From Phymorhynchus buccinoides (taxonomy: Eukaryota; Mollusca; Gastropoda; Neogastropoda; Raphitomidae), in the NCBI GenBank assembly GCA_017654935.2, contig CM065699.1:44406940-44470939 (forward strand): a stretch of 64,000 nucleotides of DNA, given 5' to 3'. Position numbers and translations under genes: made by a program. The first letter of the stretch is position 1. Every line of letters starts with the position of its first letter. A model generated the notes under the pieces. It was not told where the DNA came from. It made no database searches and saw only the letters and a list, made by a program, of their open reading frames with translations. Below, one piece after another: positions 34,135 to 55,199 of this stretch.

Positions 34135-34482
34135 CCATTGATTATTACGCGCGCGCATGTGTGTGTGTGTGTGTGCGTCCGTGCGCGTGCGTGGTGTGTG
34201 ACTGTGTGATTCTCTATTAGTGCGTGTGTTTGCGCAATAACGTAGCTCATAAACTTTAATTTCCCTTGCAATTTTGTTTCTTTTCTTATTAATATAATAT
34301 TGTAATATTGTTTCAAATTTTGTGGTTATGAACAGGGCTTTGTTTAAATAATATTATTGTATGTATATTTGATTTGATTGTAGTGAGTCTTATGTGTATA
34401 ATGTTAACTTATTTGTGTTTTATTGGCTATGTAAAGCGCTCTGAGCTCCCTGCAAAGGGAGTAAAGCGCTATATAAATGTTT

Positions 34483-34524
<42 letters not shown>

Positions 34525-34547
34525 CCGTGACTGTGGGTTTACCTTAC

Positions 34548-34785: not shown

Positions 34786-34787
34786 CT

Positions 34788-34788
<1 letters not shown>

Positions 34789-34869
<81 letters not shown>
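34789..34869. repeat. (AC)n microsatellite abutting a splice acceptor
   Basis: About 40 AC units (GT on the coding strand) end directly at the CAG of the host exon. Confidence 0.97.
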
Positions 34870-34870
<1 letters not shown>

Positions 34871-35063
34871 TTCGGCGAATGACATAGACACACAAGAAAA
34901 CAGCAAACAGCAAAAATAGCAAAAGGAGCAAAAAAACAATACTTCCCTGTGATGTTGCTGTATTTTGTTGTGTCTCTTGCGAATAAAATAATGTTGTGGT
35001 GTGCTTGTTTGTTTGTTGTATGTTCCAGTGGTGGCCGATTACAGTCTGTTTCTTTCTTTTTAA

Positions 35064-35283
35064 CCCCTTGACTGCCAGAGAAAATTAAAGAAAAAACCAA
35101 TTGGGCAAATCATGCCACGAAAAAGACAACTGATAGAGCCAATCTGGCCAAAATGGTCTGGGGATATAACTCTCTTGACTGTTAGAGCAAAAGCCAACAT
35201 ATCAGGGTTATTTCTCTTCGTTCGATGGCGTCATCAGTGATGTCATCTGGTCAGTACGTAATACGTTGGTGGAAGTGAAGGGA
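35064..35283. mobile_element. TTAA-flanked MITE (piggyBac-like), diverged copy
   Basis: TTAA at 35060-35063 and 35284-35287. Ends CCCCTTGACTGCC and, on the other strand, TCCCTTCACTTCC. Related in its termini, but not obviously in its interior, to the MITEs at 15445 and 17947. Confidence 0.55.
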
Positions 35284-37206: not shown

Positions 37207-37211
37207 AAACA

Positions 37212-37553
37212 AGAGAACAGCTAAAGGGGGCTTCTGGCTCAGTTTCGGTTTCGGTTTCGGTTTCACTCCTTTATTTATTAAAAAACGGCTAAAATCACAC
37301 CTTTTTCTTATGCTTTTTAACCCCCCCAAAAAGGTGTGATTTAAGCCATTTTTTTGCGTTTTTTATCCACAAAAACAGTGTGATTCAATCGTTTTTACTC
37401 ACGAAAACAGCGTGATTTAACAGCTAAAGGGGGATTCTGGCTCAAGAGGAAAATCTTCTACTTTTAGATACAAAAACGCTACTTTAGGGGTAAAAAAAGT
37501 AAAAATTCGTCCCCCCTTTATTCTGCCAAATCAAAAAAAAAGCCACTACTTTT
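37212..37553. repeat. Polinton left terminal inverted repeat
   Basis: Pairs with 51384-51733. It contains three TTTCGG words near the tip, a 20-bp-stem hairpin (37287-37306 with 37328-37347), three GTGTGATT-like words and a second copy of AACAGCTAAAGGGGG plus TTCTGGCTCA about 203 bp inside the tip (37419). Confidence 0.95.
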
Positions 37554-37967
37554 AGGGCAGAATAAAAGCAAAAAATCAGACTTTTTTTTTTAAACCCCAT
37601 TTTAGATACAAAAACACTACTTTTAAGGAGTAAAAAAAAAAAAAAGAAAGAAAAAAAAAAAAAAAAGAAGAAAATTCTTTGTTAAATATTGTGATGATTT
37701 TATTCTTTCTTCACAAACACTTATTTTGTCTGTAGCCTTATTCTCAAAGGTGATCTATTCTACTACTATGAACCGGTCTAGGCTTTTCACCGTAATTAAA
37801 GAGATCAGATAACCGTCGTCGCCTCTGACTAGACTGGAGTACTGCCAACTTGTATTTAAGCAACAGGGGATTTCCGATAACGTCAAGCATAGTGAAGAGA
37901 GGAATTCATATCATTCTCCGAATTTGAAAAAATTCATTTCATTTTTTACATTCCTAAAAATTCTTTC

Positions 37968-38008
<41 letters not shown>

Positions 38009-38292
38009 TAAAACAATTTTTTCTTCTTTTTTTCTAAGAAGTTACTCAAGTTCTTTTTAAGTTCTTTTTAAGTTCTTTTTTTAAGTTCTTTTATAGGTTC
38101 TTAAACAAGTTCTTGTTAAGTCAACTTCAAGTTATTAATAAGTTCTTGGTAAGTCACATCAAGTATTTATTAAGTTCTAACACAAAAACTTGACAAGTTC
38201 TTATCAAGTTCTTACTTAAGTTATTGTTAAGTTCTTGTCGAGTTACTTACTTAAGTTATTGGTAAGTTTTTATTAAGTTCTAAAACAATAAT
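37554..38292. other. Non-coding left arm of the Polinton
   Basis: A- and T-runs (37628-37670; 28 T at about 37975-38002), then the AAGTTCTT array. No frame is supported. The right arm has almost no such spacer, so the element is asymmetric. Confidence 0.8.
38041..38285. repeat. AAGTTCTT-word array in the Polinton left arm
   Basis: About fifteen words of the type AAGTTCTT, AAGTTATT or CAAGTTCTT, irregularly spaced by 5-12 bases, several facing each other as gttcttgttaagt or acttgacaagttc. Possible binding sites for a replication or transcription factor of the element (inference). Confidence 0.85.
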
Positions 38293-38724
38293 TTATTGCA
38301 TTAAAAATGGATCGCTCTCAGGTTTTAAGCTATTTGGCTTTTGTTTTTCTTGTTTGTCTGCTACTTTTTCTGTTTGTATTGTTTTTACTTCTACTCGTTT
38401 TTCTAGCTTTGGTTGCATGTGTGTTTTATATAATTTATAAGACAAATAACCAACACCAGCAACCACACCAACAGTAAGCAATACAACATCGTAATTCGTA
38501 CTGTTTTGTTTGTCTTCTTCTTTTTTAACTGGTATTGCGCTTATGGTTGATTCATCTGACAACAGTTTTTGTTTTGTTTGTTTATTCATTTTTTGTTGTC
38601 GATTCCACTTTGATAACCTTTTACCTGCTTCAACTCGTCCTGGGTTCTTCGTTACCTTGGTTACCGTCTGACTGGGGCTTGTTTGCTGTTCTGTCTGATT
38701 CGTTTGATTCTCTGTCACGTTCAT
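38293..38724 (-). CDS. Polinton small protein with one membrane segment
   Basis: 143 residues. A Gln/Thr-rich N-terminus is followed by a basic stretch NPGRVEAGKRLSKWNRQQK (about 27-45), a hydrophobic helix at about 79-98 (VVLLTVGVVAGVGYLSY), then a basic Lys/Glu-rich tail. The basic box recalls, from memory, a PxRVxAGKxLAxxN motif common in Polinton-encoded small proteins. Function unknown. Its start lies inside the upstream gene, overlapping it by 95 bp in another frame, so the two are probably co-expressed leftward. Confidence 0.7.
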   Translation of the reverse strand: MNVTENQTNQTEQQTSPSQTVTKVTKNPGRVEAGKRLSKWNRQQKMNKQTKQKLLSDESTISAIPVKKEEDKQNSTNYDVVLLTVGVVAGVGYLSYKLYKTHMQPKLEKRVEVKTIQTEKVADKQEKQKPNSLKPESDPFLMQ

Positions 38725-39178
38725 TTTTAATAGCCATAAAATCTATATGATTAAAAGTAATTAACCCCATAACAACTGGTGATAAAAGCCCGCCAAACCT
38801 ATAAAAAAGATCACAACTAAGAGACTCTAATGATTTAGTTAAAACAGGATCTTGACTTAAATCGTACATTAAATCTTGGCTTGAATCGAGTGGAAAAAAC
38901 TGACTAACTAACTTAGTGTACAAGCCTATTACAGTTTGACCTAAACTTTTAACCATTTTAGATCCTAATTGTGCTTCGTATCTGGTGTAGTACTTTTCAA
39001 TGTCAGCAGAAGACATTTGTTGAATCTGTTCTATACTAAATTCTGTTCCTAAGTATTGTTTTGTTTTTCCACACGCAGCCAGAGAATACAACTTTTCCTT
39101 TTTATTCATAACACTTGTCGACACTTCATCAGACATTACGGCTTCCTGCGCATTTAACAACAGTTCGTCACAATTCAT
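38630..39178 (-). CDS. Polinton conserved protein of unknown function
   Basis: 182 residues from an ATG at 39178. Mostly helical. It contains YSLAACGKTKQYLGTEFS (about 31-48), SADIEKYYTRYEAQLGSKM and a long amphipathic stretch to about 150, then an Asn/Asp/Ser/Arg-rich tail lying in the overlap with the next gene. From memory the ACGKTKxYLG...YYxRYExxxG pattern recurs in Polintons of aquatic invertebrates. No catalytic motif was recognised. Transcribed leftward from a 38-bp divergent spacer. Confidence 0.7.
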   Translation of the reverse strand: MNCDELLLNAQEAVMSDEVSTSVMNKKEKLYSLAACGKTKQYLGTEFSIEQIQQMSSADIEKYYTRYEAQLGSKMVKSLGQTVIGLYTKLVSQFFPLDSSQDLMYDLSQDPVLTKSLESLSCDLFYRFGGLLSPVVMGLITFNHIDFMAIKNERDRESNESDRTANKPQSDGNQGNEEPRTS

Positions 39179-39216
39179 TTTTAGTTGATTTATTATTTTT
39201 GTTTTTAAAATAAAAA
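39179..39216. promoter_or_regulatory. Divergent spacer between two Polinton gene blocks
   Basis: 38 bp of A/T-rich sequence (ttatttttgtttttaaaata) between the start codons of leftward and rightward blocks. It must hold parts of both promoters or 5' UTRs. Similar tight divergent spacers lie at 43050-43097 and 45651-45669. Confidence 0.5.
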
Positions 39217-39447
39217 ATGAGTGCTGAAAAAACTGTTGCTAACCTTGTATATCAATCTGCTCTGATTGGTGGACTTTCTGTTGCGTACACGATGGTTGGT
39301 AAGAAACTATTGAAAATGAAAGCAGCTGACCTAGGAAAACTTGATCTAGAGGACTCTGGTAAACTAATCGCTATAATCACTGCTTCAATCGCAACAAAAG
39401 ACTTTCTAGTTAAGCAAGGAATAATTCCAGAAAATATATATATGTAA
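39217..39447 (+). CDS. Polinton small hydrophobic protein
   Basis: 76 residues. Two hydrophobic stretches (about 13-27 and 46-62) are separated by a charged linker with KLLKMKAADLGKLDLED. It could be a small membrane or virion protein. Stop at 39447, seven bases before the next gene, in an apparent rightward block with the integrase. No known family identified. Confidence 0.65.
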   Translation: MSAEKTVANLVYQSALIGGLSVAYTMVGKKLLKMKAADLGKLDLEDSGKLIAIITASIATKDFLVKQGIIPENIYM

Positions 39448-39454
39448 AAATAAA

Positions 39455-39859
39455 ATGGCTTCACTCGCAATGATGATTGGCGGTGCTGTAGTAAACGCAC
39501 TTGCTTTTTCAGGAAGTAATTACATGTTCAGTAAACTAGAAACAAACAAGGAAAGACAAAGACATAATCGAGCAATGGAGCAATTAGCAGCAGCACAAGA
39601 CGCCTATGAAAAACAAAGACTCGCTCAGTTAGATTTTATTAACAACAAATTAAAACTACAAAACCATGCAGCATACACTTTTAAGAATGTTGACGACGCC
39701 ATTAAAGAGTATTATTTAGTGACAGGAGAAGACCTCCAACAGCTCCCACCACCAAAACTAAGTGACTTCTACCAACCATCCGAAAAACAAAAACTCCAGG
39801 AAATAGCTTTTATTGTAGTTGGTATGACTGCTGTTTATTTCATAGCAAAAAACGTGTAG
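39455..39859 (+). CDS. Polinton coiled-coil protein with terminal membrane segments
   Basis: 134 residues. An N-terminal Gly/Ala-rich hydrophobic segment (1-22) is followed by a charged helix (RQRHNRAMEQLAAAQDAYEK) predicted to coil, a Pro-rich linker QQLPPPKLSDFYQPSE, and a C-terminal hydrophobic helix (about 113-131). The arrangement suggests a small membrane-associated virion protein. Function unknown. Seven bases separate its stop from the integrase start. Confidence 0.65.
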   Translation: MASLAMMIGGAVVNALAFSGSNYMFSKLETNKERQRHNRAMEQLAAAQDAYEKQRLAQLDFINNKLKLQNHAAYTFKNVDDAIKEYYLVTGEDLQQLPPPKLSDFYQPSEKQKLQEIAFIVVGMTAVYFIAKNV

Positions 39860-39866
39860 TATTAAA

Positions 39867-40847
39867 ATGAATGATAAACTATCTAAAATTTATTATTCAC
39901 CAAAAGGTTATTGGAAAGGTTTAACTGCTATTCAAAAATTAAATCAAGCTGCTGGAGTCACTGAACAAACAGCAAAAGAATGGTTATCTAAACAAGCTAT
40001 ATGGCAAATTTATCTACCAGCACCTAAACGAATTAAAAGACCACACTTCGTTAACTCAACACCAAATGACACTCATCAAATGGATCTTCTATACTTACCC
40101 CATGATTTAATCAGAAGAAAAAGATTTAAATACGCGTTGACAGTTGTTGATTTAGCTTCAAGATATAAAGATGCTGAACCATTGACTGATAAAAGTGCTA
40201 CTTCAGTCTCTGTTGCTTTACAAGAAATCTATAGACGCGGTCCATTAACCTATCCTCGTTTAATTCAAGTTGATGAAGGAAAAGAATTTAAAGGACAATT
40301 CAACCAGCTAATGTTAAAACACAAAGTATCTATTAAACGCGGTATTCCTGGAAATCATAGATCACAAGCCTTAGTCGAAAACTTTAACAAACAATTAGCT
40401 GAACGACTTTTCTCTTACCAATATCACAGAGAACTCCTTGATTCAACTAGAAACACTGAATGGGTTAGAAGATTAAGTAGTGTTCTGAGAGTCATGAATA
40501 ACGAAGAATCTAAAGTAACAGGATTTAAACCAGTAAAAGCAATACAGAAGAAAACGATTGACACTTCGTTAGACACACCTCATGAACATTTAATTTCAAA
40601 ACAGCTGATACCGTTTGGAATCAAAGTTAGGTTTCTTTATGCACCAGGAGAAGCGGAAGGAGACACACGTGTAAGAGCGACTGATCCAATTTGGAGTATT
40701 GAACCGTACGAAATAAAAAGTGTAATAGAAATGAATCCACCGGTGTATTATTTAAGAGAAACTGATACAACAACACGACCCGTTCCAAAAAGAGCCTTTG
40801 TTAAAGAAGAATTACAGATAATTCCGCCAGACACAGTTCCGATTTGA
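39867..40847 (+). CDS. INT: Polinton integrase (retroviral-type DDE)
   Basis: 326 residues, a usual length for this family. The catalytic triad is visible: D73 in HQMDLLYL, D136 in IQVDEGKEF and E171 in QALVENFNKQ, with about 34 residues between the last two, as in retroviral integrases. The N-terminus has a short helical region (TAIQKLNQAAGVTEQTAKEW) without an obvious HHCC zinc site. The C-terminus has a small beta-rich region with WSIEPYEIKSVIEMNPP, like the SH3-type DNA-binding part. Expected role: insertion of the linear element with a short target duplication, which agrees with the AAACA repeats at the borders. No stop or frameshift. Confidence 0.93.
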   Translation: MNDKLSKIYYSPKGYWKGLTAIQKLNQAAGVTEQTAKEWLSKQAIWQIYLPAPKRIKRPHFVNSTPNDTHQMDLLYLPHDLIRRKRFKYALTVVDLASRYKDAEPLTDKSATSVSVALQEIYRRGPLTYPRLIQVDEGKEFKGQFNQLMLKHKVSIKRGIPGNHRSQALVENFNKQLAERLFSYQYHRELLDSTRNTEWVRRLSSVLRVMNNEESKVTGFKPVKAIQKKTIDTSLDTPHEHLISKQLIPFGIKVRFLYAPGEAEGDTRVRATDPIWSIEPYEIKSVIEMNPPVYYLRETDTTTRPVPKRAFVKEELQIIPPDTVPI

Positions 40848-40862
40848 TTAGACAAAAAAAAA

Positions 40863-41087
40863 ATGAGTTTTAAAATGGAGACTCAGAATAAAGAGATACT
40901 CGAGACAAAGAATTACGACATTTTATTGAAAAGATTAAGGAATGCGCAGAAAGAAATTGTTCTATCTCAGCTATTAATGGAAGACGATAAAATAGTCAGT
41001 AAATACTTGTTCGAAATTGAAAGCAAAATAATGGATACTTTATCAGAAATTTACAACAAGTTTAACCTTGAATTTGACCCAGTATAA
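40863..41087 (+). CDS. Polinton small hypothetical protein
   Basis: 74 residues, charged and mostly helical, with no membrane segment. Starts 15 bases after the integrase stop (a second ATG four codons in is equally possible). Not recognised. Kept because it fills a gene-sized gap in an otherwise gapless element and has an open frame. Confidence 0.55.
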   Translation: MSFKMETQNKEILETKNYDILLKRLRNAQKEIVLSQLLMEDDKIVSKYLFEIESKIMDTLSEIYNKFNLEFDPV

Positions 41088-41140
41088 AAAAAAAGAAACC
41101 AAAAAAAAATTGACCTTTTTTTTTTTTTTTTTTTTTGCCT
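41088..41140. terminator. Convergent A/T-run spacer
   Basis: A-rich (aaaaaaaaagaaaccaaaaa) then a run of about 20 T between the ends of the rightward small gene and the leftward ATPase. Probably the 3' ends of both transcripts. No clear AATAAA is seen, so the function is inferred from position. Confidence 0.4.
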
Positions 41141-41758
41141 TCACAAACATTTGTACTGACTAGGAAAATCTGTTTTTAACACTAGCTTACAAAACTTCTC
41201 TTTCCTCAGTTTTTGTTTAATCGACTTTTTTTCTTCTTTTGATTCAATCACATCATTTTCATCTAGACATTCATCAAAACTATTTTTATCTTTAGTAAAA
41301 AACAAAACAACCGTCTTTAACTGTTCTCTAAAGTCTTTTAAAACTGAATTATACTTTTGTGTTAAAATCCATACACTAATCCCTGCATGTCTACCACTAA
41401 AAGCTAACTTAGCTAAACTATTTCTTTTTTTAACAATGTCTTTTTCAGCCGAGCAGTCATCAATAATAAACAATGTTGACGTTCCTTTAAACAGTTGATA
41501 AAAATGATCTAAACATTCACTTAACTTATTACTTGGGTCAACCAAATAGACTTTATCATCCTCCCAAATGAACTTTCTTTCTTTGTATGATTTGTTGAAT
41601 TCTAAAGTAGTACAAAAAATTACTATATGTTCAAAGTGATTTCGATAAACCGTTTGTATTAAATCTAACATAAATATCGTTTTTCCACACCCAGTCATCC
41701 CACAAAATAACCCGCAATGTGGTTCTTTTGTAAGGAAATTTAAACTGTTCAAGTCCAT
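41141..41758 (-). CDS. ATP: Polinton genome-packaging ATPase (A32/FtsK-HerA type)
   Basis: 205 residues. Walker A is GMTGCGKT (20-27), Walker B TLFIIDD (95-101), and a sensor-like segment SVWILTQKY lies at about 128-136, following SGRHAG. This is the compact form of the FtsK/HerA packaging ATPase found in Polintons and related double-jelly-roll viruses, which drives DNA into the capsid. It lies four bases downstream of the capsid gene on the same strand, fitting a virion-assembly unit. Intact. Confidence 0.88.
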   Translation of the reverse strand: MDLNSLNFLTKEPHCGLFCGMTGCGKTIFMLDLIQTVYRNHFEHIVIFCTTLEFNKSYKERKFIWEDDKVYLVDPSNKLSECLDHFYQLFKGTSTLFIIDDCSAEKDIVKKRNSLAKLAFSGRHAGISVWILTQKYNSVLKDFREQLKTVVLFFTKDKNSFDECLDENDVIESKEEKKSIKQKLRKEKFCKLVLKTDFPSQYKCL

Positions 41759-41762
41759 TGTT

Positions 41763-43049
41763 TTAATACATAATATCTTTTAATCTGTTATTCTCAATGT
41801 TCAGCTGAGCATCGCATAGTAAATACACATAAACATATATTTGTTTGCCCACTTCCGCTTCTTTATGAATTTGAATGTTTATTCCGCCTGACCCATCACC
41901 TACTGTTCTTCCGCTACCATGAAGTTTGTTATCATCAGTTGTTCTAAGATCTAACCACAAAGCATACTTTGAAAATAAATAATCTTCTAGTCTAACATCA
42001 TGAAGATGGAGGTCTTTGCAAATTAAATCAACAGACGGATCTCTTAGTTGCCCGCCTCCACCAAACAGTTTTCTTATTTCATCAAAGTGCTGATAAGGTA
42101 AAAGACCGCTCGCAAACAATTGGTTCGGTTGCCCTTCAATCGTAGTAGTCAGCTTAGTTATTTTTGGATTATAAAACCTCTCGCTTAATCTATTAAAGGG
42201 TTTTTTGGTTTCTTCAAACAGCAGCAAAATTCCTTTCAACGACCTTGCTGATATATTCAAATCGATGTTCCAGATTGTGTCTATTGTGTTTTTAGTTAAC
42301 TTACTGTGATTTAAAATTCTGTTGTAGTATATTGCAAATCTTGACTGGTATTGTTGTGAAATCAACCGAGCTAATTCTTGATGACGAACAACATCAAACT
42401 CTAATGTGATGTCTGAAATACTATATTTTGCATTTGAATCTTCTGTCGATCTGATAACACGGGCATAGTCATTAAAAGTAAATTCATACATAAGCCTATC
42501 TTGTAAAGCTCCCTGATAATATGGTGAGTGTGTGTTCAATAGTTCAAAGTCGAGAGGAATGTAGAATCGATTACCATAAACTTGAGCAACCAACGCATCT
42601 TTATTGCTATCTTTTTTATCATCAGCATCAATTCTATGTTTTATACCATTATCTCCTTGTATTCCCTGATAAACCCGATCTTTTCTTTCATTTTCTGTTA
42701 ACCAGAGGTCGCAATAACTCAAAAAGACATCTGCGTTATCTAAAGACATTACCTCTCTCCCTTCAAGTTTAATAGTAATCTTACTAACTATTGATCTACC
42801 AAGATTAGCAACTAAAGTTCTGTTTGGGTCGGTCTCTGACTCCAGGTCTATTTTAAATGCAAGACGAGCAGTGCCTGGCACGATGACTTCATTACTCCCC
42901 AGACTAGGAAATCTTACTGATAATATTTGTCTTTGATCGATAGTTGAAGGATTATTACTTATCACGATACTCTGTCTGGTTCCTTTTACACCGAGTGGTT
43001 CTTTTAACCGTCTGTATGGATCAAGACTCGACCCGTATGATTGCGACAT
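41763..43049 (-). CDS. Polinton putative major capsid protein (double jelly roll)
   Basis: 428 residues from the ATG at 43049; an upstream in-frame ATG at 43121 adds a hydrophobic leader overlapping the divergent gene and is less likely. Beta-rich throughout, with VPGTARLAFKIDLES, SIVSKITIKLEGREVMSL, YYQGALQDRLMYEFTF and a final segment IYVYVYLLCDAQLNIEN. Its size, position beside the ATPase and general motif order fit the hexon-like capsid protein of Polintons. No single residue proves it; structure prediction would. Expected role: outer shell of an icosahedral particle. Intact. Confidence 0.65.
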   Translation of the reverse strand: MSQSYGSSLDPYRRLKEPLGVKGTRQSIVISNNPSTIDQRQILSVRFPSLGSNEVIVPGTARLAFKIDLESETDPNRTLVANLGRSIVSKITIKLEGREVMSLDNADVFLSYCDLWLTENERKDRVYQGIQGDNGIKHRIDADDKKDSNKDALVAQVYGNRFYIPLDFELLNTHSPYYQGALQDRLMYEFTFNDYARVIRSTEDSNAKYSISDITLEFDVVRHQELARLISQQYQSRFAIYYNRILNHSKLTKNTIDTIWNIDLNISARSLKGILLLFEETKKPFNRLSERFYNPKITKLTTTIEGQPNQLFASGLLPYQHFDEIRKLFGGGGQLRDPSVDLICKDLHLHDVRLEDYLFSKYALWLDLRTTDDNKLHGSGRTVGDGSGGINIQIHKEAEVGKQIYVYVYLLCDAQLNIENNRLKDIMY

Positions 43050-43097
43050 CTCTCTTTTTTTTAGAAATAAAATAAAAACATAATTATAAATAAAAAC
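43050..43097. promoter_or_regulatory. Divergent spacer between capsid gene and coiled-coil gene
   Basis: 48 bp, A/T-rich (tttttttagaaataaaataa). Both start codons face outward. Confidence 0.45.
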
Positions 43098-44420
43098 ATG
43101 GAAGGAAAAGAAGCAGTCCACGATTATGATGCCTTTGACGATGAAGCTGGAGATGACATGAGTGAAGACATTCCTTTATTGTCTCGTCATCGTAATCTAC
43201 CATCTTTAAGACAAGAACTAGATGAAGCAGAACCAAACCCGAATGTAGAAGTTAGACCAAGGGAAGATAATATAGTAGTTGGAAAATCTCAATTTGAAAT
43301 GCACTATGAAATACAGAAATCGAAAGTAATGGCTTTTCGTAAATTTATAGGTCAAGATTTATCCGATTTGTATGATCCTAATGACTATGTTTTAGATAGT
43401 GAAGGTCATTTATTTTTGAATAATAATGAATCAACCCGACTTACACAAAGATATAATCCAGCAAAGTTTTATAAAATAAGTTCAATAATTTCTCATGGCA
43501 CCCCGATTAAGGATCTAAGACGTATTGGCGTTGACATAAAACCAAAACCAACCCTAAGCACACAAGCTGTTTCTACTCTTCAAAACACACTACAAGAACT
43601 ACCTACTGATTCCCATCTTCAATCGATTCCCCTTAGAGACTTAAGCGCAACTGCGGACCAGATAATAGAAATGGAAACTAGTTTTATAGCTTTAGAAGAT
43701 GAAGAAACCCATTTAAAAACATTACATGATTCACCATTACCTATGAGAGAACTAATGGCGCTCAATTCAACATTACAAACTACCAGAGGCGAGTTAACAA
43801 ATAATCTAGCAAAGTTAAGCGAACTGGATGCTCACATTGACAGAGAAAAACAGAAATTAGTTGAAGCGGACGACAATAACCTAGGACAAGACGTAAAAGA
43901 CAGAATCATGCAAAGACTAGATGATCTTCAACAAGAGAGAGCTGCAAGACTAGAAGTACTGTCAACTAACCGTGAACAATTACGAACACAAGTCAGCAGA
44001 ATAAAAGAAACCATCCAAAGAATTTTACACGAAGATACAACGTTAGCAGAAAGAATAAAAACTTTATTTAGAGAGCAAGGAGTCACGATAGCGAGCGTTA
44101 TGACAGCTTTAGGGTTTGCAATCTCTACTTTAGTGTTTGCTTTAACAGGAACAGGTGGTGGTGGTGGTCAATTACCTTCTCCACCTTCTCCACCTTCGCC
44201 ATCAAAAGACTCTTGGATTAAAAAACAACTGGAACATTTAACGAATCTATTAAAAAAATTAGGAGAAAAAGCACTAGATGCGCTACCCGGTATATTAGGT
44301 GGAATTGTTAGTTGGCTTTTTTCTACTGCAAGCAAAGTAGTCGGTTTTATGGCTGAACACTTATGGATGCTAATAGTTTTAGTTGTAGGATTACTCTCTA
44401 GTAAAATAAAAATAAACTAG
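43098..44420 (+). CDS. Polinton coiled-coil protein with C-terminal hydrophobic domain
   Basis: 440 residues. An acidic N-terminus is followed by a globular part with FIGQDLSDLYDPNDYVLD, a coiled coil (about 205-310), a hydrophobic helix VTIASVMTALGFAISTLVF (about 332-350), a GGGGG and Pro/Ser linker, and a second hydrophobic region ending LWMLIVLVVGLLSSK. From memory this two-part hydrophobic tail with a Gly/Pro hinge is characteristic of a widely conserved Polinton protein of unknown role. Membrane or DNA-packaging functions are possible but unproven. Its 3' end overlaps the convergent 419-residue gene by 30 bp. Confidence 0.75.
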   Translation: MEGKEAVHDYDAFDDEAGDDMSEDIPLLSRHRNLPSLRQELDEAEPNPNVEVRPREDNIVVGKSQFEMHYEIQKSKVMAFRKFIGQDLSDLYDPNDYVLDSEGHLFLNNNESTRLTQRYNPAKFYKISSIISHGTPIKDLRRIGVDIKPKPTLSTQAVSTLQNTLQELPTDSHLQSIPLRDLSATADQIIEMETSFIALEDEETHLKTLHDSPLPMRELMALNSTLQTTRGELTNNLAKLSELDAHIDREKQKLVEADDNNLGQDVKDRIMQRLDDLQQERAARLEVLSTNREQLRTQVSRIKETIQRILHEDTTLAERIKTLFREQGVTIASVMTALGFAISTLVFALTGTGGGGGQLPSPPSPPSPSKDSWIKKQLEHLTNLLKKLGEKALDALPGILGGIVSWLFSTASKVVGFMAEHLWMLIVLVVGLLSSKIKIN

Positions 44421-45650
44421 ACCGGCTGCTGTTAGAAAAATAACTAGTGCTGTCTTTTCGTTTTCGTGACTGTCAGTTAAGTTCGTTAAGTTCGTTGAGT
44501 TCGTAGAGTTAGTTAAGTTCGTAGAGTTAGTTAAGTTCATAGAGTTAGTTAAGTTCGTTGAATTCGTTAAGTTAATATTCTTTTTTTGACTGACAGGGAT
44601 TGGATGGTGTGTTCTTTGTATGATCGACAATGTAGAATTTATTTTTAAATTTTTACCAACTGCTTGATTATCTTTTGCTATAAGGATTTCGTTGTTATAG
44701 TTTACAATTGTTCCTATTTGAAGTCTAAGATCAGAGGGCAGCATGTACAATCCACTACCAACAGCAAAGTCTACTTTTGATCTTGCGAATCTTAAAACGT
44801 CTTGATACCTTTTAATGCTTGCTGGGAGGTCAACTGTAGAATTGATTGCATCTTCTAAATTAGCTAAATACTGTTTTTGTGCATCAAACCCAGTAGAAGG
44901 ATCCATTATCTCAGATTTAACTTGCGCTTGAGATCCCAGCAAACACCACACGTAAGTACGAATAGAATCATTTACTCGTTCTATTCCCGCCTTTGTCAGT
45001 CCTTCAGAAGTATCAAGAATAAAAGTAGACCAAGCGTTTTTATGTTTTTGTTGAATAGATCCCAGATGAACGGTCGTACCTGAAGAAAAAGACGTGTAAG
45101 GTGGATTCCAATCATAGTTATACTTTCTGTGCACGCCCCAATAATAAAGTGTTCCCAACCCATGATTACGATCTAACTTTTGCCTAAAGTCTGTATTCAA
45201 GTTAATGTTAAACTCATTACAAATCCGTTCAAAGGCCTTCAAGTCAATTCTGTTGTTGAACGGATTAAAAGTAGAATCATTCGGTAATGGAGCATGTAGT
45301 TCAGACAAAATACGCTTGAAAGTATAATAGAAATGAAATCTATAAACTGCTTTTACCATGACTCCAGGATGATTTAAGTGATCAGCGAAAGAAACACCAC
45401 ACCCTGTTGTAGCGCAAAACACAGCAAAGTTTAACTGGTTTTGATAAAACTGCATTGGATGACTAAACCATGCCTTTGCGATGTTATCATGTTTGACACT
45501 AGGATTTAAATAATGGCTTAATGGATTACTGACCTTAACTTCAAAAGAATCAACCCCCACTGCAACAACTATTGAATCAACAGCTATAGTTTTAGGGTTA
45601 TATGATCCAACCGCATATTTAGCGTCTTTGTTATATTTAAAAGCATTCAT
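44391..45650 (-). CDS. Polinton conserved protein with Asn-Leu-Thr repeat stalk and C-terminal anchor
   Basis: 419 residues. A globular N-terminal domain of about 340 residues contains NFAVFCATTGCGVSFADHL, FERICNEFNINL and GTLYYWGVHRKYNYDWNPP. A repeat-rich stretch (about 360-392) follows, of NLTNSTNLTNS type with a dozen or so N-x-S/T sequons, then a hydrophobic C-terminal helix (TALVIFLTAAGLVYFYF). The layout is that of a glycosylatable stalk on a membrane anchor, though no signal peptide is seen. The globular domain resembles, from memory, a recurrent Polinton protein without known function. Divergent from the penton-like gene. Confidence 0.75.
   Translation of the reverse strand: MNAFKYNKDAKYAVGSYNPKTIAVDSIVVAVGVDSFEVKVSNPLSHYLNPSVKHDNIAKAWFSHPMQFYQNQLNFAVFCATTGCGVSFADHLNHPGVMVKAVYRFHFYYTFKRILSELHAPLPNDSTFNPFNNRIDLKAFERICNEFNINLNTDFRQKLDRNHGLGTLYYWGVHRKYNYDWNPPYTSFSSGTTVHLGSIQQKHKNAWSTFILDTSEGLTKAGIERVNDSIRTYVWCLLGSQAQVKSEIMDPSTGFDAQKQYLANLEDAINSTVDLPASIKRYQDVLRFARSKVDFAVGSGLYMLPSDLRLQIGTIVNYNNEILIAKDNQAVGKNLKINSTLSIIQRTHHPIPVSQKKNINLTNSTNLTNSMNLTNSTNLTNSTNSTNLTNLTDSHENEKTALVIFLTAAGLVYFYFTRE
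44475..44580. repeat. Coding minisatellite (TTAAGTTCGT words)
   Basis: Plus-strand words agttaagttcgt, gagttagttaagttc and gagttcgtagag repeat about ten times and encode the Asn/Thr/Ser/Leu repeats of the minus-strand protein. Confidence 0.9.
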
Positions 45651-45669
45651 TTATATATTCGTAATAAAA

Positions 45670-46347
45670 ATGTTTATTTATATAACTGATCAAGACGAGC
45701 CAATACTTTTACAACGCCCTATTGAAAATCATGGTTCTCTAAAAGTAGCGCTCCATGAAATTTATTACAAAGTTAAATGGATTAACATAAGCGAATCCTT
45801 AAAGAACAATTGGATAAGAAAAATTACCAGTGAAGGGATGATTGAACTAACTATACCTGACGGTTATTACGGTTTTTGTTCATTAAAAGAAATATTTAAC
45901 GACTTCGACATTACTTTAAAACTTAATGAGGGAAATTTGAAAGTGAAGATGACGTTTAGAGGCCAAAAAGGTGAAGTATTTGAATTTGCTAATGAATTGG
46001 CTAAACTATTAGGTTTTAGATTAGACAGGTTCCGTGTTACTGATAATGCACTGGAAAGTAATGCATATACGGCTGAAAAATCACTTAATCTTGGAATACA
46101 TTCTTTATTATACTTTCATTTAGATATCCTGAGTACGGATGACAACTTATTTGATAACCAGCCGTCTACTGTGTTAAGAGTTCTTCCAACAGCAAAAGCG
46201 GCATACTGTGATTACGAAATTATTACATTCACTAACTTACAGTTTAAAGAATTAGTTTGTGGGGTTCACCATTCACTAAAAATAAGAATAACTGACGAAA
46301 AAGGAAAAGAAGTTCAGTGCGACAGCTTGAATGATAATTTAGTATAA
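45670..46347 (+). CDS. Polinton putative penton-like minor capsid protein
   Basis: 225 residues from the ATG at 45670; an upstream ATG at 45628 would overlap the divergent gene and adds only a hydrophobic leader. The order of segments fits the single-jelly-roll penton proteins of Polintons: an N-terminal strand then LKVALHEIYYKVKW, a middle IPDGYYGFCSLKEIF and LAKLLGFRL, and near the end ITFTNLQFKEL followed by HSLKIRITDEKGKEVQ. These resemblances are from memory of the family, not a search. Expected role: capsid vertices. Four bases separate it from the next gene. Intact. Confidence 0.6.
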   Translation: MFIYITDQDEPILLQRPIENHGSLKVALHEIYYKVKWINISESLKNNWIRKITSEGMIELTIPDGYYGFCSLKEIFNDFDITLKLNEGNLKVKMTFRGQKGEVFEFANELAKLLGFRLDRFRVTDNALESNAYTAEKSLNLGIHSLLYFHLDILSTDDNLFDNQPSTVLRVLPTAKAAYCDYEIITFTNLQFKELVCGVHHSLKIRITDEKGKEVQCDSLNDNLV

Positions 46348-46351
46348 AACT

Positions 46352-47203
46352 ATGTCGCGCGGACCAGATCAACCGGTTATGCTTGACCCTGTTAGATGCG
46401 CAACTTTAGAATTGAAGGACCTAGCAGACACAGAAGACTTTGATTTAAATGGGGAGATAGGAGCGCTGTATGGTTTTGAGTACACAAACAACGGCTATTA
46501 TAAACGAGCAGAAATAAGCGATAAAAAGGTTCCTAAACTAGAGCAACTGCGTAATGTAGTAGCTGACAATGTTGGCCAGTTTGAATATAAAGTTGTTAGG
46601 GAAAGGGATAACAAATGGCATTTAATTCCATTCATTGATTGGGAAATAAAGTTTGAATTTTTAAGCCCGTTTACATTCTTTGATAATAACAAATACTTTC
46701 GCAAATCATTTAACTCAGGGCCGTTACATGTCAGTCTGATTCCCCAAAACAACAGCAGAAGAGAAATAGCAATCAAACCTTATAAAAAGAGACAGTACAT
46801 ACTGCATAGAAAAAAGACAGTGACAAAAGATGCAGCCACGCAATTAGAGTTCATTCCTAAAATGGCTTTAGCAGACGAATTTACTATGATATTTGAACTT
46901 TCTGTTAGAGCAGACAACCCTGATTCCCTACCTGTTGGTGTTAGCGACAACCTAATGAAAGGGATTCTTATTTCTTGGCAAAACTTGGATGTTGAATCAG
47001 TGAAGTGTACTATCGTTATTCAAAACCGCGGTGAAGAAATTAAGGCAGTGTCGACCAGCGATAAAGTTATATTGAGTGTTGATCCAGACAATCTTAAAGA
47101 ATTAACGTACATTAATGTTACTAATTTAGATCTCATTGGGTTTTATTACACTGAAAGCATTTTGCCTGATGATCTTCTTAAAATGATAGCAAGTGCAAAT
47201 TAA
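46352..47203 (+). CDS. Polinton hypothetical protein, beta-rich
   Basis: 283 residues, no membrane segments. Contains FIDWEIKFEFLSPFTFFDNN, FNSGPLHVSLIPQNNSRREI, KPYKKRQYILHRKK and a C-terminal TYINVTNLDLIGFYYTES. Mixed beta content and its place directly after the penton-like gene suggest a virion component. No family recognised. Confidence 0.65.
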   Translation: MSRGPDQPVMLDPVRCATLELKDLADTEDFDLNGEIGALYGFEYTNNGYYKRAEISDKKVPKLEQLRNVVADNVGQFEYKVVRERDNKWHLIPFIDWEIKFEFLSPFTFFDNNKYFRKSFNSGPLHVSLIPQNNSRREIAIKPYKKRQYILHRKKTVTKDAATQLEFIPKMALADEFTMIFELSVRADNPDSLPVGVSDNLMKGILISWQNLDVESVKCTIVIQNRGEEIKAVSTSDKVILSVDPDNLKELTYINVTNLDLIGFYYTESILPDDLLKMIASAN

Positions 47204-47236
47204 ATGTTAAATTTTTTTTTTTAAATATAAAAAAAG

Positions 47237-47866
47237 ATGTCCGTTACAGTTTATCCAAAAATACCAAAAGAAAATACTGACAAAGAAAAGACTGATGGTG
47301 GTGATGATCCTGAAATCAGAAAGTTCAGATTGTCTACCATTACAGAAATACAAAGAGAATTGGAAAAAGACCTCACTAACTATAACAGAACCAAACGAAG
47401 GTACTCTTGTTTGTTTAATACAGCAACATACTTAAATACTGGATTTGGGAGTCTAGGTACTTTAACAGCAGGAAGCTCTGTAGGGTTGTTAGCAACAGGG
47501 GCCGGATCAGTAGTAGCTTTGCCTCTAGGTTGTGTATCGTTGGCGCTGGGGTTGTTTTCAATGACAACGTCCGCTTTCAACAAAAAAATAAAAGTCAAAC
47601 TTCAAAAGCATACAGCCATGGTTCAATTAATAATGGCAAAACTTAGTTCATTCCGATTAATTATCAGTAAAGCTTTGCAAGACTCTCAAATTTCGGATGA
47701 GGAGTTCAATAGACTGCAAGCTGACTACAATGATTACAAAATGCAAAAGTTCGAACTTCAGAAAAAATCAAGAGCAAGTTTTTCACAACCGCAAGACATA
47801 GAAGCGATAAAAAAAGAATGTGAAAAAAAAATAAACGACACATTAAAATCTGTTCTAGGGAAATAA
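47237..47866 (+). CDS. Polinton conserved protein with membrane hairpin and coiled coil
   Basis: 209 residues. A charged N-terminus and helix (about 30-55) come first, then a Gly/Ala/Val-rich hydrophobic hairpin (about 66-110: GFGSLGTLTAGSSVGLLATG...), then a helix with KLQKHTAMVQLIMAKLSS and IISKALQDSQISDEEFNRL, ending in a coiled tail. The KHxxIxxLxxxKLxxI...ISxALxDxxISDxEF pattern is, from memory, a frequent Polinton protein. Role unknown. Convergent with PolB, 57 bp apart. Confidence 0.75.
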   Translation: MSVTVYPKIPKENTDKEKTDGGDDPEIRKFRLSTITEIQRELEKDLTNYNRTKRRYSCLFNTATYLNTGFGSLGTLTAGSSVGLLATGAGSVVALPLGCVSLALGLFSMTTSAFNKKIKVKLQKHTAMVQLIMAKLSSFRLIISKALQDSQISDEEFNRLQADYNDYKMQKFELQKKSRASFSQPQDIEAIKKECEKKINDTLKSVLGK

Positions 47867-47923
47867 CAATAAGAACTCCAAAGGGTGCTTATTCAATTCA
47901 ATATGATTACAAGTTTCGAAAGT

Positions 47924-50900
47924 CTACTGACTATGACACTTAGTTCTCCAGTGTCCAACTGCAAAGGAAAACTCTGGTGATTTAAACACACGCTTTGTGT
48001 TGTTTGAGTCAAGTGATTTTTTATTTACAACTGTTGTGTTTATTTCGTGTAACTTAGACTGTATTTTTATGTTGTCATGATAAAACGTCTTGGTATCGAA
48101 CAGTGCTTCTTTATAGTTATCGTGTGTCATGACCATTTGAACAACTGGTCTAGAAATTCCTTTTGCTTTTTTAATTACGCTAGTTTGGCTGGCAATTGAA
48201 TACATCTTTGCTCTCAGACCAACGTACTCTTTGATTATAGTTCCATTCAGTTCATCCTTCATCTTGCCGATTACCTTTTTATTTGTGGATGAATGTAATG
48301 AAGATTCACTTGGGTAGTCAGAGGTGTCATACCAGGAGACAACACCTTTTGCTGAATCTGTCTCTAAATCTTTGTAGAAGTCTTCAGTCGGAATGTCTAG
48401 AATAAATGAGTCCGTATCTGTATAAAGTACTCTGGAGTCTGGATAGAGTGGTTTAAAGTAGTCGTAAAGAAATTCTAGCATCAATAACTTAGACAATTCA
48501 AGAACAGCAAACCCAATGAAGACTGGTTTATCTAGCTTCACATTAATTTTTTTCATCATTATCCCGTAAAGGTTGTCGTGGAACTTTTTGAAGTCTTGAT
48601 AATTAGGTTTTGAAGTTAATTTGATTGCTTTGTTTTCTTGGGTAACTAATCTAACGTCTTTGCGTTTGTGCGGGTTTTCCATTGTCTTTCCAAAACAACT
48701 GTTGTTCATTAGTTTAAAGAAGTCTTTTTCTGAGGCGTCGGTAGCTTGAGTTCTGAGATTAGTGTTCTTCATTATATATGGTTCCATGAACTTCCTCTGA
48801 GTGAACGAAATGATTCTATGAACTGCTGTTAGTCTTAATCCGTGACGTAAATAAAATTGTAGTAATCTATAATGACAGACGTTTTTTTTTTTGGAGTGTA
48901 GATTAGGCACAAGTTTAGGGAGGTCATTCTCCACTTGAAGTCTTTCAACTGCTAACGGGTAGTCATTGTGCAGGTCATGGAGTTCGTCCGGATAATCTAA
49001 GTCGACTTCTAAAATAAATCCTGTTTCGTAAGAATCTGATAATTTCAAAAGCCATTGCAAAAACTCTGCGATATTAAAATTAAAAGGAGCTGTAAACATT
49101 TTAAAGTTACGTAATGGAAGTGACTGGCACATCGCCCAACCATAGAGATTGTTTGCATCTAAATACATGATATAATTTGATGGTTTAGAAGGATCGTAGT
49201 CGTCTAAGTATTTGTTGTTAGCCTTGCAGTAACCGTGTGAAGCCATAGAGATTCCCCCGCGTAGTCCGTCTTCAATCATCTGGAGAGTTAGTAGATCGGA
49301 GAGTAAGTCAATCTGTATTTTGGTAAATCTTAAGAAAGCATCCCAACTCATACCAGGAGCAGTGATATAATTAGCAGGGTCTAGACTGTAATGTTTTATA
49401 CACGTTTTTCTGTAGTTCTCGAATACATCTGCAAGCAAACAAACGTCAGCCATTAAATAGGCGTCGTGGTAGTCTCCCATGGTCTGGCATTTTAACTTAA
49501 TCCACGCTGACTGAGCATGGTTGTAGTCAGAGTCGCTTATATCTTTTCCTTTTAAACTAGAGTAGAATGCACCTTTGGGAGGTAATTTTAAATCGTCGAA
49601 CCGCTCCCAACTACTCATGTACTCATAAGGGTATACTCCTTTTCGAACAAGTGCTGGATCAAAGTATTTTTCTGTTATAGTGCATTTGGATAGTGACTGA
49701 CCTAAAGACTCTAGTGATCCCATCAGATGTTGTAATGAATCGTAAAAAGACAATTGACCTAATGTAAATGTCATGTACTTTTCTGAAGACTGAGCTATAC
49801 AACTGACGGTTCTAAATTCATCAGTAACTGCTTGTAGAATTAAATGAGAGTCATATCCACGTAGATTGTGAAAGAATATAGGCAGTTTCCAAGTCTTTGG
49901 TTCAAACTTTAACTGCAAATTACAGGAGTTGTGTGCTGCTCCTCTGAATTTTCCACTAATGTGATCATGGTCTCGTACTTTATAGATGTCTGGACAGTCA
50001 GGGGAGTCTTCCACAAACCCTTTTCCGCAAATCCAACATTCAGTAGCTGATTCAAATTGAATTAAATCTTCAGGTGTCATGATTAAATCTAATAAATTTA
50101 GTTGGTTAGATAGTTCATTTCGTAGTTTCATCATTCTCATTAAAAAGATTTTTGCAGCATCGGGTCCTCTATAAAGTTCAGGTTCAAAATGTATCCCATC
50201 TGATCTAAGAACAATAAATGCGAATGAACAGATTTGATGATTATTCAATAAAACAGTTTTAGGAAGATTTTTAGGAGCTGGTCCTTGATAGGGTACAATG
50301 ATTGACTCGAAATCAGCATAAACAACATAAGGACTTAATTGCAGTTTCTTCCAGTTTTTAAAGAACACCTTACTTCCTTCTTTCGGAGTAATAAGTTCAG
50401 TATTACAGTCAATGGATGAATTACAATGTTTTCTATGTTCAACCGCTGCTTGAATACTTGGCATTCTTAGTAAACATCTTCGACAGAATTCTTGTTTTTC
50501 TTTGTGATTTGTAGTATAGTTTATAAGTCTGCTCATTGTTCTGATTAAAGTGTAGTGTGTTTTTGTTCCGTCTGTTACTAAGAGAAGATCAATATGTTTT
50601 TTATCAGGATCACCAATCATGGGAGAGTTCTTTGAAACTCGGATTGGTTTAAGGTTTTCTTCTACAGACCATGTGTAGATGTTAATTGAAATTGGTTTAT
50701 TCTGTTCTTCAAATTGATCAACTTCGCTTAGGCTTACAGGGAAGTCGATTCCATCAAAGTTTAATTCATTTATGTAAGGTTGATAGTTAATTACTCTTTC
50801 TGCGTTCTTTTTGATATAATGAAGTTTAGCTAAAACACACCACATAAAACATTTATCATCAGTATTTTTTATGTTTAATACTGCACGCTTTAAAACAAGT

Positions 50901-51319
50901 TCTTTAGGTAAAGGAATAAAGGAGTTTCCTACGATTGGTGCATATTTACTCTCCTTCATTTTAATTTCTAATACCCCGCCTTCTGACCAACCAGATCCTC
51001 TTAGTTTTGCCTCTTCTGATACGTTAATGAACTGGGTGATTAAATTGTCTGCCCAGGTTTCTGTAAAATCATTATATGAAAGAACTACTTGTTGTTTAGT
51101 AGAGACCCATACTTGAAGCTGCTCACCATGGACTGTTTCATAATCTACGAACACTGCTAACATTACTTTAACTGGTGGTTCTATAGCTAGTTTTTCAGGT
51201 ATTTGCGAAATAGCATGTTTTACACTTTTTAGTACATTTTTTGGATCAATAACTTCTAAATCCGTTTCTTTAAAAACTTTGTCTAAGTGCTCAATTATTT
51301 CATCAAGCGCCATTGTCAT
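47924..51319 (-). CDS. POLB: Polinton protein-primed family B DNA polymerase
   Basis: 1131 residues. Exonuclease motifs: ExoI YADFES (D336, E338), ExoII FFHNLRGYDSH (482-492), ExoIII DAYLMADVCLLAD (Y621, D625). Polymerase motifs: A YLDANNLYGW (D721), B KLMNNSCFGKTMENP (869-883), C YTDTDSF (D968, D970). Before ExoII is a zinc/HNH-like insertion (C428, C431, then RDHDHISGKFRGAAHNSC to C466), usual in eukaryotic members. A C..C...H..C cluster occurs near 279-299. Expected role: replication of the linear element from a protein primer at the terminal repeats. All catalytic residues are present and no frameshift is seen. Begins close to the right terminal repeat. Confidence 0.96.
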   Translation of the reverse strand: MTMALDEIIEHLDKVFKETDLEVIDPKNVLKSVKHAISQIPEKLAIEPPVKVMLAVFVDYETVHGEQLQVWVSTKQQVVLSYNDFTETWADNLITQFINVSEEAKLRGSGWSEGGVLEIKMKESKYAPIVGNSFIPLPKELVLKRAVLNIKNTDDKCFMWCVLAKLHYIKKNAERVINYQPYINELNFDGIDFPVSLSEVDQFEEQNKPISINIYTWSVEENLKPIRVSKNSPMIGDPDKKHIDLLLVTDGTKTHYTLIRTMSRLINYTTNHKEKQEFCRRCLLRMPSIQAAVEHRKHCNSSIDCNTELITPKEGSKVFFKNWKKLQLSPYVVYADFESIIVPYQGPAPKNLPKTVLLNNHQICSFAFIVLRSDGIHFEPELYRGPDAAKIFLMRMMKLRNELSNQLNLLDLIMTPEDLIQFESATECWICGKGFVEDSPDCPDIYKVRDHDHISGKFRGAAHNSCNLQLKFEPKTWKLPIFFHNLRGYDSHLILQAVTDEFRTVSCIAQSSEKYMTFTLGQLSFYDSLQHLMGSLESLGQSLSKCTITEKYFDPALVRKGVYPYEYMSSWERFDDLKLPPKGAFYSSLKGKDISDSDYNHAQSAWIKLKCQTMGDYHDAYLMADVCLLADVFENYRKTCIKHYSLDPANYITAPGMSWDAFLRFTKIQIDLLSDLLTLQMIEDGLRGGISMASHGYCKANNKYLDDYDPSKPSNYIMYLDANNLYGWAMCQSLPLRNFKMFTAPFNFNIAEFLQWLLKLSDSYETGFILEVDLDYPDELHDLHNDYPLAVERLQVENDLPKLVPNLHSKKKNVCHYRLLQFYLRHGLRLTAVHRIISFTQRKFMEPYIMKNTNLRTQATDASEKDFFKLMNNSCFGKTMENPHKRKDVRLVTQENKAIKLTSKPNYQDFKKFHDNLYGIMMKKINVKLDKPVFIGFAVLELSKLLMLEFLYDYFKPLYPDSRVLYTDTDSFILDIPTEDFYKDLETDSAKGVVSWYDTSDYPSESSLHSSTNKKVIGKMKDELNGTIIKEYVGLRAKMYSIASQTSVIKKAKGISRPVVQMVMTHDNYKEALFDTKTFYHDNIKIQSKLHEINTTVVNKKSLDSNNTKRVFKSPEFSFAVGHWRTKCHSQ

Positions 51320-51383
51320 GTTGAGTTCCTTTTTCTAACTCAAATTATTTTGTTTAATTAAAAATAATTAATTTTGTTTCACC

Positions 51384-51733
51384 TAAAGTAGTGGCTTTTT
51401 TTTTTTTTTTGATTTGACAGAATAAAGGGGAGACGAATTTTTACTTTTTTTACCCCTTAAAGTAGCGTTTTTGTATCTAAAAGTAGAAGATTTTCTTCTT
51501 GAGCCAGAATCCCCCTTTAGCTGTTAAATCACGTTGTTTTTCGTGAGTAAAAACGATTGAATCACACTGTTTTTGTGGATAAAAAACGCAAAAAAATGGC
51601 TTAAATCACACCTTTTTGGGGGGGTTAAAAAGCATAAGAAAAAGGTGTGATTTTAGCCGTTTTTTAATAAATAAAGGAGTGAAACCGAAACCGAAACCGA
51701 AACTGAGCCAGAAGCCCCCTTTAGCTGTTCTCT
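51384..51733. repeat. Polinton right terminal inverted repeat
   Basis: Complement of 37212-37553 with a few indels in A/T runs; for example the T run at 51395-51410 is longer than the A run at 37533-37541. Ends ...CTTTAGCTGTTCTCT, then AAACA. Confidence 0.95.
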
Positions 51734-51739
51734 AAACAA

Positions 51740-52097: not shown

Positions 52098-52337
52098 CTG
52101 GATGTTGCCAGTGGCGAAGTTTCTGATGAGCACCACGTGGTTCCAGGCGGAGGGTCTCAGCATGCCCGGGATCGCGGTCATGCCCACGGAGACCCCGTAC
52201 TCGTCCCAGAAGGACACGAAGAAGAGGCCCTGCATCACCGACAGCTTGATCACGTTCCCCGTCTGGCACCGGTAGCTGAGCATAGTCCCCTGAGTGTTGG
52301 GACCCTCTGGGTACACGTAGAGGGACAGGGAGAGGTC
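52098..52337 (-). CDS. Host gene, internal exon: LamG/pentraxin-like module core
   Basis: The minus-strand acceptor CTCACTACAG and donor CAG/GTACTG enclose 240 bp, exactly 80 codons, phase 0 at both ends. It reads DLSLSLYVYPEG, TMLSYRCQTGNVIKL, FFVSFWDEYGVSVGMTA and SAWNHVVLIRNFATGNIQ. The order (YxxPxG, GTLLSY, W.H....RN..TG.I) is the core of LamG/pentraxin concanavalin-type folds. It joins in phase to exon 55200-55442 upstream and 34548-34785 downstream (NIQ then IYHNGE). The donor GTACTG is weak. The intron downstream of it contains the Polinton. Confidence 0.87.
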
Positions 52338-52856
52338 CTGTAGTGAGAATTTTTAAAAAACACAACCAGGATGGAAAGCCACGCAAACGCACCCCCTGAG
52401 TGTTGGGACCCCCTGGGTACACGTAGAGGGACAGGGAGAGATCCTGTAGTGAGAATAAAGGATGGAAAGCCACGCAAACGCACCCCCTGAGTGTTGGGAC
52501 CCCCTGGGTACACGTAGAGGGACAGGGAGAGATCCTGTAGTGAGAATAAAGAAAATACAAACCAGTATGGAAAGCCACGTAAACGCACTCCCTGAGTGTT
52601 GGGACCCCCTGGGTACACGTAGGTAGAAGGACATGTAGTGAGAATATAAGAAGAAAACAACCTGTATGGAAAGCCACGTAAACGCACTCCCAGCGTGCTA
52701 GGACATTCTGGGTACACGAAGAATGAGAGGGAGAGCGGTCCTGTAGTGAGAATCAATAGAAGAAAAACCAGGATAGAAAGCCACGTAGACGCATTCCCAG
52801 CGCGTTGGGACTCTCTGGGTACACATAGGACAGGGAGAGAGGTCCTGTAGTGAGAT
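52338..52856 (-). repeat. Tandem copies of splice acceptor plus exon start, five units
   Basis: Units of about 90-110 bp, each holding on the minus strand a TCTCACTACAG-type acceptor and an imperfect copy of the first about 50 bases of the exon at 52098-52337, then gtgcgtttgcgtggctttcc and a spacer. The word gttgggac(c/t) marks the units at about 52401, 52491, 52598, 52697 (changed) and 52804. Later units are more diverged. Confidence 0.92.
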
Positions 52857-54650: not shown

Positions 54651-55171
<521 letters not shown>

Positions 55172-55199
55172 CTCTCCCCTTCTCCCACTTCCACCCTAC

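Follow-up and report, generated by a model that had tools for sequence, protein, structure and literature searches.

Polintons, also called Mavericks, have long been predicted to be viruses, and Maverick particles had not been seen according to the account of vertebrate Mavericks by Barreat and Katzourakis 2021 (PMC8097293). The elements described there carry PolB, an integrase, an ATPase and a major capsid protein, are bounded by inverted repeats whose ends carry a short repeated motif, and occur as many open copies with purifying selection on the core genes. The same combination, with a candidate in the place of the major capsid protein, was observed in an element of 14,522 bp at positions 37212-51733 of a 64,000-nt stretch of DNA (the window) from the gastropod Phymorhynchus buccinoides (GCA_017654935.2, contig CM065699.1, positions 44,406,940 to 44,470,939). 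The element is very probably a Polinton (Maverick) whose family has been active recently, and perhaps still is, in the genome of this animal. It possesses a PolB, an RVE integrase, an A32-type ATPase and terminal inverted repeats with 5-6-bp duplication, which are among the features by which Polintons and Mavericks are recognised.

Compared with the vertebrate Mavericks as described in PMC8097293, the end motif is AGAGA(A) instead of (AG)3 or (AGT)2, the exact target duplications are 5 bp in four of five cases and 6 bp in one instead of 6 bp, the length is 14.5 kb instead of about 17 kb, and the genes lie in seven blocks of alternating strand instead of two modules; the family has no detected protease and has a second, shorter kind of end. 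The PY and PX Polintons of Krupovic et al. 2014 (PMC4028283) likewise contain the ATPase, integrase and PolB; relatives of the present capsid candidate match PF16903 (Capsid_N), and Polinton PY is linked in that paper to PBCV-1 VP54. A protease was identifiable in just 74% of the 72 Polintons treated there, so that its absence from our element is not disqualifying. Adintoviruses (PMC11071296) are similar in their rve integrase and in a PolB with an N-terminal OTU-like candidate region, whereas the window gave no Pfam match to a chromodomain in the integrase, to the adenovirus hexon or to adenain: the integrase matched only rve at E ≤ 0.1, with no C-terminal chromodomain, and no hexon match was obtained among 31 members of the capsid-candidate family. 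The original prediction had called the element Polinton/adintovirus-like; the Polinton part was retained, while the adintovirus label, whose definition includes an integrase with C-terminal chromodomain and a hexon recognisable by BLASTP against adintovirus hexons, was unsupported by these Pfam results and was dropped. Mavirus and the EMALEs (PMC8547959) are also integrating elements with inverted repeats, but the present one resides in an animal genome, has a long PolB with exonuclease-type motifs and differs in gene set; duplications of 5-6 bp for mavirus and Polintons and mostly 3-5 bp for EMALEs are cited in that paper.

The terminal inverted repeats, about 330 bp each, are 100% complementary over the outer 196 bp and 92-95% in their inward parts. 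The termini read AGAGAACAGC...GCTGTTCTCT, that is AGAGAAC...GTTCTCT, with AAACA on either side, in agreement with the terminal repeats and short target duplication described earlier. Before the ragged inner edge, the two arms differ at six columns, four of which represent alleles present in other copies, and one substitution and one single-base gap are private to the window; the many differences between the repeats that would speak against a recent insertion were therefore not observed. As the tail of the host repeat is simple sequence, the AAACA duplication alone is weak evidence, and exact duplications were also found in other copies (GCAGA, CGAGG and CATGT of 5 bp, CTATGC of 6 bp). A search for the empty site was made with the host flanks joined without the element around a single AAACA, and 40 of the 588 candidate places were scored, two of them being the flanks themselves. 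In the other 38 the match continues beyond the join (by 7-25 bp in 37 cases, by 2 bp in the last) into the (AAAC)-rich or A-rich tail of a host repeat, and none of these 38 reaches the unique right flank, so the search identified the target repeat and not an element-free allele. The copy in the window probably entered this A-rich tail only recently.

The family has many copies: in the 2.1-Gb genome a 37-nt terminal pattern, two mismatches being allowed, hit 190 places, and the reversed control hit none. The first 100 places on the list are all exact and contain 33 facing pairs 12.1-19.9 kb apart, with 22 spanning 14.48-14.58 kb and 23 spanning 14.48-14.62 kb. Nine elements, namely the window and eight others fetched in halves, were compared gene by gene. 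Identity along the long aligned stretches of the eight others is 96.8-98.9%, and the integrase, ATPase, PolB, ORF1-4, ORF9, ORF10, ORF12 and ORF13 contain no stop or frameshift in any of them as far as covered, the boundary between the fetched halves cutting ORF9 in five and ORF10 in three. Frameshifts were observed in the capsid candidate of one copy and in ORF11 of three. In a second size class, of 15.1-15.2 kb, the left subterminal part is largely replaced by another stretch of about 1.1 kb, where a hairpin-like inverted repeat and a pair of similar blocks were seen by eye (L039, 330-1530). At another locus (L087, G000:C7:7077650-7078200), two element ends face each other within 218 bp, outer to outer, with host flanks that form an inverted repeat, either a fold-back product or an assembly artefact; element O (L080, L081) likewise has palindromic flanks.

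The substitutions among the nine copies bear the mark of selection. The ratio pN/pS is 0 for the ATPase, ORF3 and ORF4, 0.04 for the integrase, 0.05 for ORF10 and ORF13, and 0.18-0.21 for the capsid candidate, PolB, ORF2 and ORF12. With ORF11 left out, since its frameshifts disturb the alignment (2495 synonymous and 9433 non-synonymous sites), changes present in at least two copies number 75 synonymous against 47 non-synonymous (rate ratio 0.17), and changes private to a single copy 63 against 46 (0.19). Both excesses are significant when 30% of neutral changes are taken as synonymous (binomial P 6.7e-13 for shared and 1.6e-9 for private changes), and the two ratios do not differ (Fisher P 0.59). 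The synonymous excess even among private changes indicates that the proteins were functioning when most of the divergence accumulated. In the window itself, with ORF11 counted, the private changes are 21 synonymous and 10 non-synonymous; these ten amino-acid changes, if all arose after insertion, correspond to about 0.1% of sites. At animal mutation rates, the insertion would be well under a few million years old, and probably less than one million. The many near-identical copies with mostly open genes, the private synonymous excess and the few private changes in the terminal repeats bear out, at the level of the family, the recent insertion proposed at the outset, and they describe a high-copy, young family that was recently, and perhaps is still, active.

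Most of the element is filled by 13 likely genes (Table 1). About 14 open genes had been counted at the outset, and the remaining frame, ORF6, is doubtful: a stop or frameshift in three of the eight other copies indicates that it is probably not a gene. The PolB motifs and the integrase and ATPase domains can all be read in open frames, as had been stated. In PolB, the exonuclease-type motifs DFES (336) and YDSH (489) are followed in order by polymerase motifs at 721, 873 and 968; residues 424-469 form an endonuclease VII/HNH-like insert, the sole profile match of the window protein, and Cys157/His255 were assigned by eye to a candidate vOTU. Read after Krupovic et al. 2024 (PMC11071308), this layout is that of a predicted protein-primed PolB with terminal protein, vOTU, exonuclease and palm, the terminal protein and vOTU parts being recognised by eye. 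The protein aligns near full length with all eight PF03175-matching loci examined in the same genome, at 41-79% amino-acid identity. At least two other PolB groups are present in this genome (L001-L008); identity to the window protein is about 70-79% in one and about 41-42% in another. In the integrase, D73, D136 and E171 (by eye) have DD35E spacing, and the ATPase, unchanged in protein over the nine copies, also gave a PHROG terminase match (1e-13). A EukProt protein derived from a transcript is 63% identical to ORF12, so transcription of a relative does occur somewhere, and a relative at 99% identity, encoded on a contig of 1,092 bp in a sequence collection, shows that nearly the same sequence was assembled elsewhere; a scan of the ORF12 family gave only scattered weak Pfam matches.

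Table 1. Features of the Polinton element and its insertion site, in window coordinates (pN/pS among nine copies).
Feature	Position	Strand	Description
Target duplication, left copy	37207..37211		AAACA
Left terminal inverted repeat	37212..37541	+	Starts AGAGAACAGC; extra inner AACAGCTAAAGGGGG copy at 37419
Left subterminal non-coding region	37575..38290		AAGTTCTT-type repeats; mostly swapped for another stretch of ~1.1 kb in 15.1-15.2 kb copies
ORF1	38293..38724	-	143 aa; probable membrane protein (by eye); pN/pS 0.94
ORF2	38630..39178	-	182 aa; pN/pS 0.19
ORF3	39217..39447	+	76 aa; amino acids identical in nine copies
ORF4	39455..39859	+	134 aa; amino acids identical in nine copies
Integrase	39867..40847	+	rve PF00665 E 2.2e-10, above cut-off; pN/pS 0.04
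ORF6	40863..41087	+	74 aa; probably no gene
A32-type packaging ATPase	41141..41758	-	PF04665 E 5.9e-13; Walker A GMTGCGKT
Major capsid protein candidate	41763..43049	-	428 aa; pN/pS 0.18
ORF9	43098..44420	+	440 aa; coiled-coil, then C-terminal hydrophobic segments (by eye)
ORF10	44391..45650	-	419 aa; LTNSTN-type repeats, C-terminal hydrophobic segment; pN/pS 0.05
ORF11	45670..46347	+	225 aa; penton-like candidate; pN/pS 0.35
ORF12	46352..47203	+	283 aa; 26 database relatives including a EukProt transcript
ORF13	47237..47866	+	209 aa; hydrophobic segments; pN/pS 0.05, pS high (0.099)
PolB	47924..51319	-	1131 aa
Right terminal inverted repeat	51402..51733	-	
Target duplication, right copy	51734..51738		AAACA

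The assignment of the capsid-type genes is tentative. Of the proteins for which an HMM comparison had been advised in the original prediction, the ATPase was matched in Pfam and PolB was missed by PF03175. For the capsid candidate, which has 2301 database relatives, 12 of the 31 aligned family members match PF16903, and the window protein itself reaches only E 0.067. A profile search of the PDB gave one unrelated match for it (E 0.54), the PDB searches as a whole gave no useful match, and of ten stretches matched in viral_contigs none was confirmed as a related locus. One relative, the 673-aa protein P0033 from a contig of 117,704 bp, has a chain 245 residues longer, with the Capsid_N domain present. 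ORF11 may be penton-like, a proposal made from resemblance, and a scan of its family (nine members) gave scattered weak Pfam matches and no meaningful one. Its C-terminus reads ...LNDNLV in the window and ...LNALLEIK, in the same frame, in all eight other copies; in all eight database relatives LEI stands at the C-terminus or close to it, as LEIK in six. The element had been described as undamaged, which is too strong in view of this altered end, and the window copy may thus be weakened in its penton-like gene, with the reservation that sequencing or assembly errors are possible for any ORF11 difference.

Several observations weigh against an active, virus-like family. The capsid folds are proposed from the Capsid_N matches of those family members, from resemblance and from gene position, and ORF11 is truncated in copies B, D and I (85, 132 and 105 residues) besides being altered in the window. 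PF03175 stays below the reporting limit for the window PolB, and the window is absent among the 58 genome matches to that profile (91 of 544 candidates scored). A Pfam scan of 12 of the 14 frames (all but ORF3 and ORF6) detected no cysteine maturation protease; a genome search with the protease profile PF00770 gave no matches, and its controls were equally without match, so it is uninformative. Purifying selection is not uniform, pN/pS being near 1 in ORF1 and in residues 1-250 of ORF9 (1.09), and the synonymous excess, with ORF11 counted, is weaker in the private changes of copies D (17 synonymous, 29 non-synonymous) and E (16 and 20) than in those of the window. Some copies on C1 at 93.35-93.55 Mb have common flanks, so that segmental duplication or redundancy in the assembly may account for part of the copy count.

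Anatomy, copy number, open genes, the pattern of selection, the target duplication and the target repeat were observed directly, while extrachromosomal protein-primed replication and particle formation are inferred. The protein-primed polymerase would copy the linear element outside the chromosome, starting at the AGAGA end repeats, the capsid-type proteins and packaging ATPase would serve propagation, and the integrase would insert daughter copies with a 5-6-bp duplication. The family might instead be a transposon only, multiplying in the germline without particles and carrying capsid genes as passengers kept for other uses or through a short time. This fits the finding that ORF11 is truncated or altered in four of nine copies including the window, and Polintons without capsid genes are reported in Krupovic et al. 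2014 (PMC4028283). It fits poorly, however, with the constraint on the capsid candidate, with an ATPase protein constant in nine copies and with synonymous divergence built up without matching amino-acid change, and we consider it unlikely.

Far less probable is an inert old copy whose likeness to the others is maintained by gene conversion. Synonymous divergence is indeed uneven along the element, as recombination or conversion predicts, from 0 in residues 251-440 of ORF9 to 0.09-0.10 in ORF11 and ORF13. The ORF9 segment (window 43848-44420) has zero nucleotide differences in the compared codons of the nine copies and its neighbouring genes vary, and ORF12, with pS 0.011, lies between ORF11 (0.092, possibly inflated by the frameshifted copies) and ORF13 (0.099), an eight- to ninefold difference. 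Such sharp contrasts between adjacent genes point to recombination between diverged strains or copies, but conversion among inert copies would not produce the private synonymous excess of the window, and stops are present in few copies. The Polinton with a recently active family remains our preferred explanation.

Two kinds of ends were detected in the family. Genome-wide, 124 ends match AGAGAACAGC... exactly, and at least 24 ends, including one on C10 that has another end 68 bp away, start with an exact ACAGC... after a non-A base, without AGAGA. An exact CAGC... preceded by a non-A base was found nowhere in the genome (0 matches), which indicates that the short ends have one common start, 5 nt inside; these patterns leave out ends cut deeper than CAGC and do not count losses of 1-4 nt separately. 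Among the first 100 exact places, 20 are without AGAGA, 13 of them in the non-A list and seven with an A before ACAGC, about as expected by chance. The 17 paired elements examined have 34 ends, of which 24 start with AGAGAACAGC and ten are without AGAGA, all ten with an A preceding CAGC, and 12 additional unpaired ends are all full. The 17 elements are a non-random set, composed of the window and eight pairs from the best-scoring matches, six from the first 30 pattern places and two chosen by coordinates. Eight elements have a short end on one or both sides, and exact duplications of 3-9 bp are absent from all eight, whereas among the nine with two full ends five have an exact one, two (I and L) are off by one base and two (H and O) have none (exact duplications, Fisher P 0.03, a difference blurred by the near-matches).

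In vertebrate Mavericks, 6-bp repeated end motifs are expected, according to PMC8097293, to permit jumping-back in protein-primed replication; AGAGA looks like such a motif by analogy, and the short ends are without exactly AGAGA. One reading is that copies enter the chromosome by two routes, through the integrase, giving full AGAGA ends and a 5-6-bp duplication, and through host end joining of free linear DNA trimmed by 5 nt. In the latter, the terminal protein might for instance be clipped off along with AGAGA, leaving ACAGC ends to be joined into breaks without duplication. No description of such short Polinton ends was found in the papers, seen in part, that a literature search returned. 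We hold the two-route reading to be rather unlikely, as three of the eight short-end elements (B, G and J) miss a 5- or 6-bp duplication by no more than one base, B and J lying in simple repeats. It is more plausible, if still short of an even chance, that the ACAGC ends involve no second route: the integrase itself may accept ends shortened by 5 nt and leave imperfect duplications, or the short ends may result from later damage or characterise a subfamily. The same three near-duplications favour this, as does the presence of short ends in four of the five examined copies of 15.1-15.2 kb (B, D, E and G, not C); yet short ends are likewise found in 14.5-14.6 kb copies (J, M, P and Q), damage would need to strike one position, given that no CAGC end follows a non-A base, and the contrast in exact duplications would have to be accounted for.

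In the surroundings of the element, broken neighbours were confirmed as described earlier, comprising a hAT-like (DUF4371) region at 1600-4283 and LINE-like pieces spread over several frames. Host direct repeats of 64 and 42 bp lie immediately to the right of the element (52287-52500), and exon-like host frames on the minus strand flank it at 25268-25771, which has a PAN domain (PF00024 E 1.5e-4), and at 34420-35109 and 55014-55460, both without Pfam match. The element may lie inside a host intron. Scanning the window against Rfam and for tRNAs gave no match.

A living animal whose genome holds so many almost identical copies, most of them open and with capsid-type genes under constraint, would be a practical place to seek replicating linear element DNA and particles, and from the two kinds of ends follows a concrete prediction on free element DNA. 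If the two-route reading were true, the short ends would document, within the genome, that linear DNA is replicated by protein priming in an animal germline.

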